A DNA stretch of 64,000 nucleotides from Planctomyces sp. SH-PL14. Lineage in GTDB: Bacteria; Planctomycetota; Planctomycetia; Planctomycetales; Planctomycetaceae. The notes under the pieces are model-generated. The model was given only the letters and a program-made list of their open reading frames with translations, did no database searches and was not told the DNA's origin. Both the position numbers and the translations under genes were made by a program. The stretch's first letter is position 1; the number at the start of each line of letters is the position of its first letter. The stretch is taken from positions 1,240,001 through 1,304,000 of the forward strand of contig NZ_CP011270.1 of assembly GCF_001610835.1 (NCBI RefSeq). Reading direction: 5' to 3'. Below are positions 29,798 to 34,518 of this stretch, piece after piece.

Positions 29798-32700
29798 CTA
29801 GCTGGCCGCTTTGGTTTCCCGGAGGCCCGAACGCGCGGGAAGCCAGATCGGCTCGATCCCCTGGCTCTCAAACATATGCGCCAAATGCAGGTGACAAGTG
29901 AAAAGAAGAATCTGCTGCCCCTGATCCGCAAACTCCATCAACGTCTGCACCGCCGCCTCCGTCCGGATCTGGTCGAAGTTCACCACGACGTCGTCCAGCA
30001 CCATCGGGATCTGGACACCCCGCTCCGAGAAGTCCTTCACCATCGCCAGCCGGATCGCCAGGAATACCTGCTCCCGCGTCCCGTTGCTGAGATGCTCGAC
30101 CTTCAGCGACTCGCCATGCTCGTCATCCACGACAATGTGCCGCTGACCCAGCGGCGTCCAGATGTTCTGGTACTTGTGCAGTGTCAGCCGATCCAGGTAC
30201 TCCGAAGCGTGCTTCAGGATCTCCGGCTGGTTGTTCCGCTCGACACGAGCCCGGATCTTCTCAACCGCCTGGGCCGCCATCTGCAGCGCCATCCACTTCT
30301 CAGTGGCCCGCTGCATCTGGTCGACGATCTGGGCGTGATCGTACTTGAGGGCCGGAAGCCGCCGGTCATTCTCGAGTTCGGAAACCTCCTGCTTCGCCCG
30401 CCCGAGCTTCTCGAACAGCTGCTCCTGCAGGGTGTCGAGATCCTTCATCTCCCGCTTGATGTCCGCGATCTGCTGCTCGACCCGCTTGGGATCGAACGCC
30501 AGCAGATCGTCCTCGACGATCGCGACTTCCTTCTCGGACTTCGTGGCGGTTTCAAGCTCCAGGAGGGCGACAGCGTGGAGCTTCCGCAGTTCTTCCAGCC
30601 GCTGGTAGCCCCGCAGGCGACTGACGAGGTCATCCCGACCCGACGCACCGCCGCGGGTCAGGAGCGCGGCACGGCGGTTCCGGCGGTCGGCGATCCGCTC
30701 GTCGAGGTCGACGAGGGAGCGAGACGAGTCTTCGATCTCGCGGAGGAGCCGCTGCCGTTCGGCGCGGGCCTCGTCCATGACGCGAATCTGCTGGTCCCAG
30801 GAGAGCAGGAGCTCGTGGTGGTCCTTCGCCTTGCCGTCCCGAACCTGGATGCGGCGGGCGAGGCCGTCCACGCGGGTCCGGAAGTCGCCGACGATCCGCT
30901 CGTCCCGCTCCGACTCCCGCTGGTCAGCGGACCACACAGCCCACAGTTCCTTCGCCTCGGCCACCTTGGCCCACAGGTCGAACGCTTCCGCGATCTTGAG
31001 CGTCTCCTTGAGACCGAGCCGCTTCAGGAGGTCGCACCAGTCGCGGCGGGCGGTCCCCACGCGGCGCTGCCGCTCCTTCATCCCCGCGCGGAGCTTGCTG
31101 AGCCGGTCCCGCTGGGCATCGATGTCGAGAGCGTCCCGCTCCATCCGGTCGAAGTCGGCGAGACGGCCCCGGATCTGACTGGCGACGTCCAGCTCGGTCA
31201 GGTCCCCCTTCTTCTCCGCCACGATCTTTCCGGCCCCCTTGGCCTCGGCGACGTCGAGCGAGCCGATGTGGAGCGACGGGATGCCGCCGCGGGCGTGGTT
31301 CTGATTCGTGATCCGGCTGATCTCGCGGCGGACGTCTTCGAGCTCGTACTCGATCTCGGACTTCCGCTTCTGGATCGCCCCCATGTTGAGCTGGGTCGGT
31401 TCGAAGTGCTCCTTCATGGACCACGTCACGCCGCCGCAGGAGACCCCCATCAGCATGTAGACGAAGCCGGCGATCCACGCCGCGTGCCCGCCGAAGCCCC
31501 CGGAGGAGATGTTGTCCCCCTGGAACAGGATCGAATAGATCCCGGCCAGGAACAGAACGAGGCCGGCGAGGCCGAAGAACCACATCGTGGCGTAGAAGTA
31601 GAGCGGCAGGTCCCGCGGACGGAGGGCCTGCGCCATCTGGAGGCCGACCGCGGCCAGAAGCTCCTGGAGCGTCTCTTCGCGGTTGCGGAGCTGGAGCAGC
31701 TGATCGAGCTCATCGAGCCGGCGGTGACAGTGCTCGCGGGCCTGCGAGAGCGAGAGTCCGCCGAGGCCGCGGAGGCGGTCCTCGAAGGCGGCCTGCCGCT
31801 TCTGGGCCGCGACGGCGAGCCGCTTGTAGGTCTTGTGCGACTGCGACCGCCGCCAGAGGGCGGCGCGGTAGTCCTTGGCCCGTTCGACCATCGCGTGGAC
31901 GGAGCGCGGCGATGTGTCGGCCTGTTCGAGGTGCCGGACGTCCCAGCTCCCTTCCAGTGAGCCGAGGTACTTGCCCCGCATGTCGGCGAGGTGCTGGTCG
32001 AGCTTCCGCTTCCCTTCGAAACCGGTCTGGCGGCGTTCTTCCAGCCGCCGCTCGATCTCCTTGACCTCCCGCTGCTCGTCGAGGAGGTGCCGGATCACCG
32101 AGAGGTGGTCTTCCAGCCGGGAGTCGCCGATCGCGACATCGGACTGCCGCTTCATGCGGGCGATGTCTTCCGCGAGCTTGCGGCGCTGGCCGTCGAACTG
32201 ATCGAGGTCCTGGTCGAGTTCTTCCAGCCGCTGGAGGCCGTCCTTCGGGAAGTCCCGCAGGTCCGGCAGACCGGTCATCTCCATCCGGAGATTCCGTTCC
32301 TTGAGCCACGGACCGTGGACCCGCTCGAAGAACGCCGTCGCCCGCAGGTTGTAATCGAGCGCTTCCTGGCGCTGCTTGCTCTTCTGGATCTGCTGGGCGA
32401 GCTGGTCCCGGCGGTCAGTCAGCTCGGCGTGGCGGCGGGTCGTATCCCCCAGGCTCGCCATCTCCTTCTCGACCGCGTGCAGGCTGCGGGCGAGGTCGAA
32501 CAGTTCCCCTTCGTGGCTCTCCGGATTCACGAGGGCCAGCGACTCCCGCTCCGACGCGTACTGCGCCTTGAGGATCCGCTCCCCATCCGGACCGAGGGAG
32601 ATGCCGTAGATGTGCCGCGCGACTTCCTCGCCGTCGAGGGTCGCCAGTTCCTGGAGCTCCTGGAGGCCGATGGCGAAGACGTTCTCGAAGATCGCTTCGC

Positions 32701-33052
32701 TCGTGCCGCCGGTGAAGGTCTTGAGCAGGGCTTCCGCTTTGACCTGGTCCTCGACGTTGTCGATCTGGATCCGGCCGCGGGTGCCGGGATAGGTCATCCG
32801 GCGGAGGCCGTATTCCCGGCCGGTGTGGTCAAAGTTGATCGCCCCGGCGCATCGCAGCGGCTGGGGGTTGGGGCCGGCGGTCCGCTCATCCTGCGGGCGG
32901 AAGCCGTAGAGCATGCTGCGGATGTACCGCATCAGCGTCGATTTGCCCGCCTCGTTCGGCCCGTAGAAGACGTTCACGCCCGTCGGCGAGAGCCGGAGGT
33001 TGAGGTCGCTCCAGACGCCAAAGCGTTCGATCTGTAGTTCGCGGATTCTCAT
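29798..33052 (-). CDS. YhaN/Rad50-like SMC-family ATPase with central membrane hairpin
   Basis: 1084 residues. The N-terminal Walker A is GPNEAGKST (31-39), followed by a Q-loop region. Long coiled coils run through the middle (about 180-470 and 560-900). The ABC signature is LSNGTREQ (about 987-994) and Walker B PMVLDDVVVNFD (about 1016-1027), so the ATPase head is complete. Two adjacent membrane helices (about 480-505 and 518-538, with YATMWFFGLAGLVLFLAGIY) replace the zinc hook at the coiled-coil turn. YhaN proteins are Rad50/SbcC relatives with a YhaO partner in DNA metabolism. The partner gene is 89 bp upstream on the same strand. Confidence 0.88.
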   Translation of the reverse strand: MRIRELQIERFGVWSDLNLRLSPTGVNVFYGPNEAGKSTLMRYIRSMLYGFRPQDERTAGPNPQPLRCAGAINFDHTGREYGLRRMTYPGTRGRIQIDNVEDQVKAEALLKTFTGGTSEAIFENVFAIGLQELQELATLDGEEVARHIYGISLGPDGERILKAQYASERESLALVNPESHEGELFDLARSLHAVEKEMASLGDTTRRHAELTDRRDQLAQQIQKSKQRQEALDYNLRATAFFERVHGPWLKERNLRMEMTGLPDLRDFPKDGLQRLEELDQDLDQFDGQRRKLAEDIARMKRQSDVAIGDSRLEDHLSVIRHLLDEQREVKEIERRLEERRQTGFEGKRKLDQHLADMRGKYLGSLEGSWDVRHLEQADTSPRSVHAMVERAKDYRAALWRRSQSHKTYKRLAVAAQKRQAAFEDRLRGLGGLSLSQAREHCHRRLDELDQLLQLRNREETLQELLAAVGLQMAQALRPRDLPLYFYATMWFFGLAGLVLFLAGIYSILFQGDNISSGGFGGHAAWIAGFVYMLMGVSCGGVTWSMKEHFEPTQLNMGAIQKRKSEIEYELEDVRREISRITNQNHARGGIPSLHIGSLDVAEAKGAGKIVAEKKGDLTELDVASQIRGRLADFDRMERDALDIDAQRDRLSKLRAGMKERQRRVGTARRDWCDLLKRLGLKETLKIAEAFDLWAKVAEAKELWAVWSADQRESERDERIVGDFRTRVDGLARRIQVRDGKAKDHHELLLSWDQQIRVMDEARAERQRLLREIEDSSRSLVDLDERIADRRNRRAALLTRGGASGRDDLVSRLRGYQRLEELRKLHAVALLELETATKSEKEVAIVEDDLLAFDPKRVEQQIADIKREMKDLDTLQEQLFEKLGRAKQEVSELENDRRLPALKYDHAQIVDQMQRATEKWMALQMAAQAVEKIRARVERNNQPEILKHASEYLDRLTLHKYQNIWTPLGQRHIVVDDEHGESLKVEHLSNGTREQVFLAIRLAMVKDFSERGVQIPMVLDDVVVNFDQIRTEAAVQTLMEFADQGQQILLFTCHLHLAHMFESQGIEPIWLPARSGLRETKAAS

Positions 33053-33141: not shown

Positions 33142-34416
33142 TCACGTCCACCACAGTCGGGCCAGTCGTCGCGATTCGTATCCGACGTGCTCCGGGTCCA
33201 TCCGGTACACGACGCGGTTCAGGCTCGACGCCCAGGGAGCCTGCACCGATTCAAACACCTTGCCGCGTTCCTTCCACTCCGGCGCCCCCGGCTGCAGCTG
33301 GTCCGAGATGGCGCCCGTGTACTCCAGAAACAGGTTCGTCGTTTCCAGCTCGCCGTCCTCGACGGGAGGCTCGCGGGTCAGCAGGTGGTGCCGCCGCACC
33401 CCTTCCGTCCGGACTTCTTCGTCGAGGAACTCCCACAGCTCGCGCTGGGTCTTCGATTCGCCGAGCAGGTCGAAGAGCTCACCCGAACCGCGGACGATCC
33501 ACTGGACGAGCCACATCGATTCCTGGCCGACCTCGCGGTCGACCAGCTGCATCGCCATTCTCTGGACAAGCTCGTCGAAGCTGACTCCGGGACGGACTTC
33601 CACCGGAAGGGCTTCCCAGCGGACCGGGGCCGTCTTGACGAGTTCATGGACGAGGCTGCCGTCCGACTTGGATTCGACGACCGTGCAGCCGTGCGGGCCG
33701 ATCCCGCGGCGGAACCGTGACTGGGACGGGCCGGGCGCGTGAATGAGCGTCGAGCCGGAGCGGATGGTCCGCCGGGCTCCGTTGCCGCCGAAGCCGATGT
33801 AGTCGACCTCCGCCGCGATCGCCTGCTGGACGATCGCCAGGGCTCCGCTCGACGAGGGGGAACGATCGAGGGTCAGCGGGCCCGTCGAGTCCCAGCGGAG
33901 GGGGGCCCCTTCGGCGATGAGGCCGATCTTGAGGCCGCGGGCGGTCTGGAGAGCGTGATCGAGGAAATCCCAGTGGGCTTCTTCGCCATGGGCTCCGACG
34001 AGCGGGATGATGGTGGCCAGGGTGCGGCCGTCGGAAACAAGGTCCGTCGGCTCGTCGTCGTTGGCGTCGAAGATCGTGACGGAATCCGGCGTCCGGATGC
34101 CGCTCCAGGCCGACGGGGGGTCCGTGTGGCCCGGCAGAATGAACGACGGGATGTTGTTGTCGTCGAGGCGGCCGAGAGCGGCCTCGATGGCGGACTTGGC
34201 GCGGAGGCTGAGCTCGCCGCCGGTGAAGGCATTTCCGGTGAGGAGGAAGAAGTCGACCGCGCGGTCGACGCAGGCGTCGACGAGGCGCGACAGGCTGATG
34301 AGGGTGGCGTCTTCGGCCAGCCGACGGTCCTCACCGGTGAGCGGACCGGAGCCAACGAGTGGCTCATCGAGGTCCAATTGCGTGGCATGGATGAAACGAA
34401 CGCGCTCGTTCGCCAT
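33142..34416 (-). CDS. YhaO/Mre11-like protein with lost metal-binding motifs
   Basis: 424 residues from the ATG at 34414-34416, with AAAGGAG upstream. The calcineurin-like phosphoesterase framework is clear: RFIHATQLDLDEPL (7-20), VDFFLLTGNAFTGGEL (54-69), IPSFILPGHTDPPSAW (89-104), VDYIGFGGNGARRTI (204-218), then IHAPGPSQSRF, where active members have a PGSPQ loop. Every ligand position is changed: DxH is QxD, GD..D is GN..T, GNHD is GHTD, and GHxH is GGNG. A nuclease activity is therefore unlikely. A structural role for the neighbouring YhaN-like ATPase is inferred from pairing and spacing. Confidence 0.78.
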   Translation of the reverse strand: MANERVRFIHATQLDLDEPLVGSGPLTGEDRRLAEDATLISLSRLVDACVDRAVDFFLLTGNAFTGGELSLRAKSAIEAALGRLDDNNIPSFILPGHTDPPSAWSGIRTPDSVTIFDANDDEPTDLVSDGRTLATIIPLVGAHGEEAHWDFLDHALQTARGLKIGLIAEGAPLRWDSTGPLTLDRSPSSSGALAIVQQAIAAEVDYIGFGGNGARRTIRSGSTLIHAPGPSQSRFRRGIGPHGCTVVESKSDGSLVHELVKTAPVRWEALPVEVRPGVSFDELVQRMAMQLVDREVGQESMWLVQWIVRGSGELFDLLGESKTQRELWEFLDEEVRTEGVRRHHLLTREPPVEDGELETTNLFLEYTGAISDQLQPGAPEWKERGKVFESVQAPWASSLNRVVYRMDPEHVGYESRRLARLWWT

Positions 34417-34518
34417 GTCCGGACTCCTTTCCCGTGCGCAGAATGCGCGCACATCCCTTGGGCAAACTATAGGGACCGTGGAAATCTAGGAAAAGCCCAG
34501 CCAGGGCCTCCCCCCTGA

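Follow-up and report, generated by a model that had tools for sequence, protein, structure and literature searches.

A gene pair in the window, the whole 64,000-nucleotide stretch of Planctomyces sp. SH-PL14 DNA that was analyzed, encodes a YhaO-like protein with the fold of Mre11 and none of its metal ligands, followed by a YhaN/Rad50-like ATPase. Computation gave an Mre11 fold, clade-wide loss of the eight ligands, purifying selection, constant pairing of the two genes, ATPase motifs, and a predicted transmembrane hairpin. We consider it fairly likely that the pair is a nuclease-free, membrane-anchored ATP clamp of the Mre11-Rad50 type, with the dead subunit as its scaffold.

The YhaO-like protein and its active site

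The pseudo-nuclease gene lies on the minus strand at 33142..34416 and is an uninterrupted frame of 424 codons plus a stop, with its ATG at 34416 and its stop at 33142. A Shine-Dalgarno sequence, AAGGAG, can be read directly 7 nt 5' of the ATG (34424..34429, minus strand), and no frameshift was found when one was looked for in this ORF. In an alignment with L044, the canonical YhaO encoded elsewhere in this genome, the eight metal ligands D-H-D-N-H-H-H-H correspond to Q13-D15-N62-H97-T98-A168-G211-G213, so that 0/8 are kept. By motif, again on the minus strand, the canonical DxH of motif I is Q13-L14-D15 (34372..34380), the GDxxD of motif II is GNAFTG (residues 61 to 66; 34219..34236), the GNHD of motif III is G96-H-T-D99 (34120..34131), and the GHxH of motif V is GGNG (residues 210 to 213; 33778..33789). 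The original prediction had these four motifs in the right places but substituted, with the PG loop after them retained; the alignment bears out the former, and the latter is seen directly as HAPGPSQ (residues 226 to 232; 33721..33741, minus strand). Motif IV, which had gone unnamed, has A168 in place of the canonical histidine (33913..33915, minus strand), as judged from the same alignment and the conservation test.

Because the motifs are gone, the protein scored, as expected, below the cut-offs of PF00149 in Pfam (12.7 versus 21.5 bits) and TIGR00619 in NCBIfam (17.9 versus 77.65 bits). A PDB sequence search with the single window protein matched no chain, and a profile of the dead clade found Mre11/SbcD in the PDB from sequence alone (1ii7, E 1.5e-5). 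The AF2 model (pLDDT 87.1, pTM 0.80) is of lower confidence in the C-terminal helices, residues 361 to 423. Foldseek returned Mre11 and SbcD as the best matches of this model, over the nuclease and capping domains (3tho_B, E 7.9e-14), and VIA aligned 296 of its residues to the Mre11 chain 4tug_A at 4.4 A (Z 23.6). The predicted fold is Mre11-like across residues 4 to 357, with the phosphoesterase fold and capping domain both present and a helical C-terminus completing the protein. Since the clade profile and the predicted fold both match Mre11, the relation is no chance alignment.

Ligand loss and selection across the clade

We took 100 stretches, 98 from genomes of the family (Planctomycetaceae by named relatives) and two from the window's genome, and then 60 further stretches. 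Together with the window's own row, these gave an alignment of 162 rows: 39 canonical, 92 from the window's clade, and 31 from a third, degenerate group. Group labels came from locus origin and ligand score and were then checked on trees. All 39 canonical rows keep 8/8 ligands. No row of the window's clade keeps more than two (44 keep none, 38 keep one, and 10 keep two), so a check for orthologues that retain the metal ligands instead found the loss to be clade-wide, 92/92. The third group, which comes from other families of the class plus two outlying loci (L045 and L232), keeps 0 to 5 of 8. The dead-clade mean of 0.63 ligand matches of 8 is near the 0.32 expected by composition alone, and the active site is therefore close to fully erased. 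The loss of the cutting residues in this family appears to be old. At the level of sequence there is strong support for the original prediction, in which a Rad50-type motor carries a dead nuclease subunit.

The alignment rows are not independent, and the conservation test used 53 non-redundant dead rows. By entropy the ligand columns rank 108 to 388 of 397 in the dead clade. W306 in the capping domain (33499..33501, minus strand) is present in 53/53 rows, and L84, H10, W104, P110, and W422 are near-fixed. W306 is a derived marker common to both degenerate clades: tryptophan occupies this column in 92/92 rows for the window's clade and 25/31 for the sister clade, against 3/39 for the canonical clade. 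The C-terminal W422 (33151..33153, minus strand) is near-fixed in the window's clade only (85/92 rows), tryptophan being unlisted at that column for the sister and canonical clades.

A check for signs of a pseudogene found none: ORFs were intact, and YhaO dN/dS could be computed for 20 of 21 close pairs, giving 19 values of at most 0.294 (mostly 0.03 to 0.29) and one of 0.402 with a tiny dS, the remaining pair being saturated. YhaN behaves likewise, often with somewhat stronger conservation. This pattern fits a YhaO kept for structure and not for catalysis. Evolution is fast in some dead YhaO rows, with end branches of up to 1.8 changes per column, implying loose constraint on parts of the protein. 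A subgroup of dead YhaO proteins (L105, L110 to L113, L115, L116, L121, L122, and L141) is about 530 to 600 aa long, more than 100 aa longer than the window's.

The partner ATPase and its predicted membrane hairpin

The 1,084-aa YhaN/Rad50-like ATPase is encoded on the minus strand at 29798..33052, starting at 33052 after a gap of 89 nt 3' of the pseudo-nuclease gene. It was assigned from PF13514 (AAA_27; 73 bits over a cut-off of 22), PDB matches to Rad50, and an AF2 model. As the original prediction stated, it carries an intact Walker A motif, GPNEAGKST (residues 31 to 39; 32936..32962), an ABC signature, LSNGTRE (residues 988 to 994; 30071..30091), and a Walker B motif, MVLDD (residues 1017 to 1021; 29990..30004), all on the minus strand. 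The residue after the Walker B aspartate is usually the catalytic glutamate; here it is an aspartate, as in dead-clade and most canonical YhaN partners examined. Because most canonical partners share it, it is no sign of decay.

In the window YhaN, ATPase lobes stand on either side of a long coiled coil, in the middle of which are two hydrophobic helices. Hydropathy and an AF2 model with a pTM of 0.40 predict these to be transmembrane helices, the first at residues 485 to 510 (31523..31600; hydropathy 2.3) and the second at residues 525 to 548 (31409..31480; hydropathy 1.62), both on the minus strand and both helical in the model. In dead-clade YhaN this hydrophobic hairpin stands at the place of the Rad50 zinc hook, and no CxxC hook was found in the middle 35 to 65% of YhaN proteins (0/154). 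A hydropathy peak reaching 1.5 or more occurs in 88/88 dead-clade partners, counting those that were long enough and skipping four shorter ones, and in 29/31 sister-clade partners, the exceptions being those of L045 and L232. The canonical partners have it in 12/35, 10 of those 12 with a second peak nearby. A full hairpin is accordingly predicted in 88/88 dead-clade, 29/31 sister-clade, and about 10/35 canonical partners. Outside the phylum, Deinococcus YhaN has a strong hydrophobic peak (2.11), and the peak of Sphingopyxis YhaN is weak (1.51) and lies outside the middle. Dead pairs are thus predicted to use a membrane-type YhaN, and canonical pairs to come in both types.

Long C-terminal tails occur on the YhaN of 11 loci of one genus, g39 (Gimesia by named relatives). 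Nine were scanned, seven as tails and two as whole proteins (L062, L066, L067, L071, L075, L077, L081, L086, and L088), and these YhaN, extended by up to about 350 aa, matched DUF4332 in 9/9 cases and helix-hairpin-helix (HhH) over the Pfam cut-off in 6/9. The YhaN partners of L045 and L232 also end in a DUF4332/HhH domain and have no transmembrane hairpin. Sister-group YhaN tails (L174 to L213, from other families of the class) are long and rich in proline and glutamate; a Pfam scan of five of these long tails plus three other tails gave no match. The DUF4332/HhH tails are the sole direct hint in sequence that suggests DNA binding.

Distribution and gene pairing

A search with the single window pseudo-nuclease found matches in 139/150 family genomes. 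The dead pair is present in at least 127 of the 150: 117 by the clade profile above 260 bits, the best canonical match, and ten more by aligned loci (nine full and one partial). Canonical YhaO was detected in 63 of the 150 genomes, in one of them as two fragments, and the 30 canonical loci checked from those genomes all keep 8/8 ligands. SbcD was over the cut-off in 17 of 150. Dead and canonical YhaO occur together in 58 genomes, and canonical without dead in 5. In 55 of 150 genomes, at least 23 of which are 98% complete or more, the dead pair is the only Mre11-type gene detected, with neither canonical YhaO nor SbcD over the cut-off. An independent scan of 41 loci gave mostly Thalassoglobus, Gimesia, Planctomicrobium, Fuerstiella, Planctomyces, and Planctomycetaceae MAGs, with one Rhodopirellula and two Kuenenia records. 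Plasmids (50 records) and phage records (4) held distant homologues only, at 27.4% identity or less among the matches listed (5 and 4, respectively), and the two plasmid YhaO copies examined keep 8/8 ligands.

YhaO and YhaN ORFs were both found in 100/100 stretches and were co-oriented in all 159 loci holding both. We found no conserved neighbours beyond the pair and no shared mobile neighbours. The largest neighbour cluster (62 loci) was set aside, as it looks like antisense ORFs of YhaN, as was a block common to 8 to 14 loci, mostly of g39.

The window genome has three YhaO-YhaN pairs: the window's own, the canonical pair L044 (C1:1193656; 8/8 ligands), and the divergent L045 (C1:7513312-7518168). 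L045 and its counterpart L232 in another genome (G040) are very divergent, their YhaO having 1/8 ligands and no Pfam match. No SbcD over the cut-off was found in the window genome. Replacement of SMC by the dead pair was considered and rejected, as this genome has a full SMC (923.7 bits).

Phylogeny and proposed order of loss

A YhaO tree of 104 rows, built after masking the ligand columns, splits the three groups at 99% SH-aLRT. With an SbcD outgroup (55 rows), each group fell on one side of a branch, and bootstrap and SH-aLRT values were 98/92 for the window's clade, 82/99 for the canonical clade, and 100/99 for the sister clade, and this rooting left the branching order of the three unsettled. 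A YhaN tree of 48 rows, made by a quick method with a midpoint root and leaving out L045 and L232, places both degenerate groups together, apart from the canonical partners, at 100 SH-aLRT. The outliers of the third group have long branches and an uncertain placement.

In both degenerate groups the N and H of motif III seldom survive, and 29/31 sister rows have G in place of the first motif V histidine, GHxH having become GGxH in L174 to L213. The YhaO of these latter loci is half dead: GNHD is lost, and many sister rows still have DxH and GD, which is why residual one-metal chemistry may be possible there. Because the YhaN tree joins both groups and W306 is common to both, the sequences are most simply read as a degenerate system that arose once and then lost its ligands step by step; the two groups may instead have lost ligands in parallel. 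The half-dead sister clade, the membrane hairpin, the clade-wide conservation, and the intact nuclease paralogue in the same genome were not part of the original prediction.

Discussion

The dead pair is probably there to hold or tether a target, DNA being the likeliest, and not to cut it. From the data above we infer complex formation, DNA as the substrate, tethering, and the cellular role of the pair. In the mechanism that we propose, the two-helix hairpin of YhaN would anchor the far end of the coiled coil in the cytoplasmic membrane, at the place of the Rad50 zinc hook. Both ATPase lobes would be cytoplasmic, and the pseudo-nuclease YhaO would bridge the YhaN heads in the manner of Mre11. 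The clamp would open and close as ATP is bound and hydrolyzed, most likely on DNA, which would be held at the membrane without being cut. A role as a DNA clamp or sensor had been proposed from the start; DNA as its target is suggested by homology to Rad50 and Mre11 and by the HhH/DUF4332 tails of one genus.

The Rad50-like ATPase and these tails also count against the strongest competitor, a membrane-anchored clamp on a target other than DNA, such as RNA or a membrane partner, although a Pfam scan of the window's own YhaN found no HhH tail or other added DNA-binding domain; we give this version a small but real chance. Slightly less probable is a pseudo-enzyme regulator that pairs or competes with an active YhaO paralogue and so tunes its nuclease. 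The window genome does hold such an intact paralogue in L044, with all 8 ligands, but the dead YhaO adjoins its own YhaN, and the 55 genomes with neither canonical YhaO nor SbcD over the cut-off offer no such paralogue to regulate. We also think it unlikely that the protein is a metalloenzyme with a rebuilt active site, either another nuclease or a phosphoesterase with new ligands. H10, D17, D55, D99, and H226 are well conserved in the dead clade and could be put forward as such a set; however, H10, D17, and D99 show equal conservation in the canonical clade, where the true ligands are present as well, and so are not new, and the motif III to V positions are among the most variable columns. 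A check for alternative ligands, made on conservation, saw no new conserved set, and a new metal site was accordingly judged unlikely.

A little less plausible still is anti-phage defence of the SMC-like, Gabija, or Lamassu kind with a dead effector. The ATPase weakly matches several PADLOC ATPase models, mostly over its first ~80 residues, but YhaO matches 0 PADLOC families, and defence genes are usually patchy in distribution, whereas this pair is near-universal in the family and lacks shared mobile neighbours. That YhaO is simply decaying under relaxed selection, with only the ATPase mattering, is very improbable: the ligand columns do drift and YhaO diverges faster than YhaN in many pairs, but the ORFs are intact across the family, dN/dS is low, W306 and scaffold residues are fixed, and at least 127 of 150 genomes retain the gene.

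Returning to the membrane-anchored DNA clamp, we extend it only tentatively to the family and, more widely, to its class, which we take to be Planctomycetia. There it would be an ancient, near-core, nuclease-free Mre11-Rad50 complex with a Rad50 arm ending in the membrane, serving as an ATP-driven chromosome-membrane tether or end-holder. It would have arisen once, through a loss of the active site that began with motifs III and V and reached I and II later, and it would have been retained together with SMC and, in some genomes, with an active nuclease pair.

Nuclease-dead Mre11 mutants are used to probe the roles of Mre11-Rad50 besides cutting. Evolution seems to have made such a dead Mre11 and kept it across a bacterial family, with the half-dead sister clade as intermediate stages. 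Should the complex tether DNA to the membrane, nature would have separated tethering from cutting in a form open to testing, in bacteria whose cell biology is unusual. Part of the test is possibly already in print, as a transposon essentiality (TraDIS) dataset exists for the planctomycete Planctopirus limnophila (PMC10632474); the word YhaN is absent from the main text of that paper.

Comparison with known systems

A search of the open-licence PMC literature, with subscription papers outside its scope, found no paper on a nuclease-dead YhaO. The YhaO-YhaN (SbcE) system of Bacillus and other bacteria resembles the dead pair in its order, YhaO then YhaN, in the YhaO fold, and in having an AAA_27 YhaN. 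It differs in its ligands: the YhaO copies examined from outside the phylum (L313 from Deinococcus and L314 from Sphingopyxis) keep 8/8, and the window protein of the dead clade keeps 0/8. In B. pumilus, one study reports induction of yhaONM together with the SOS regulon, and the title of a paper by Krishnamurthy et al. cited there ties YhaN to break repair in Bacillus (PMC3896406). SbcCD and Mre11-Rad50 have in common with the dead pair the Mre11 nuclease-plus-cap fold and a Rad50-type ATPase; unlike them, the dead pair has no metal ligands and no CxxC hook, and it has a predicted transmembrane hairpin instead.

The nearest precedent for the dead YhaO appears to be the B-subunits of eukaryotic replicative polymerases. 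These are described as calcineurin-like proteins related to the Mre11 nuclease that, in comparison with archaeal DP1, have lost all catalytic residues and are kept as a scaffold (PMC4996933). On that description the B-subunits are eukaryotic, have an OB domain, and belong to a polymerase complex, whereas the dead YhaO is bacterial and belongs to a Rad50-like ATPase complex, probably at the membrane.
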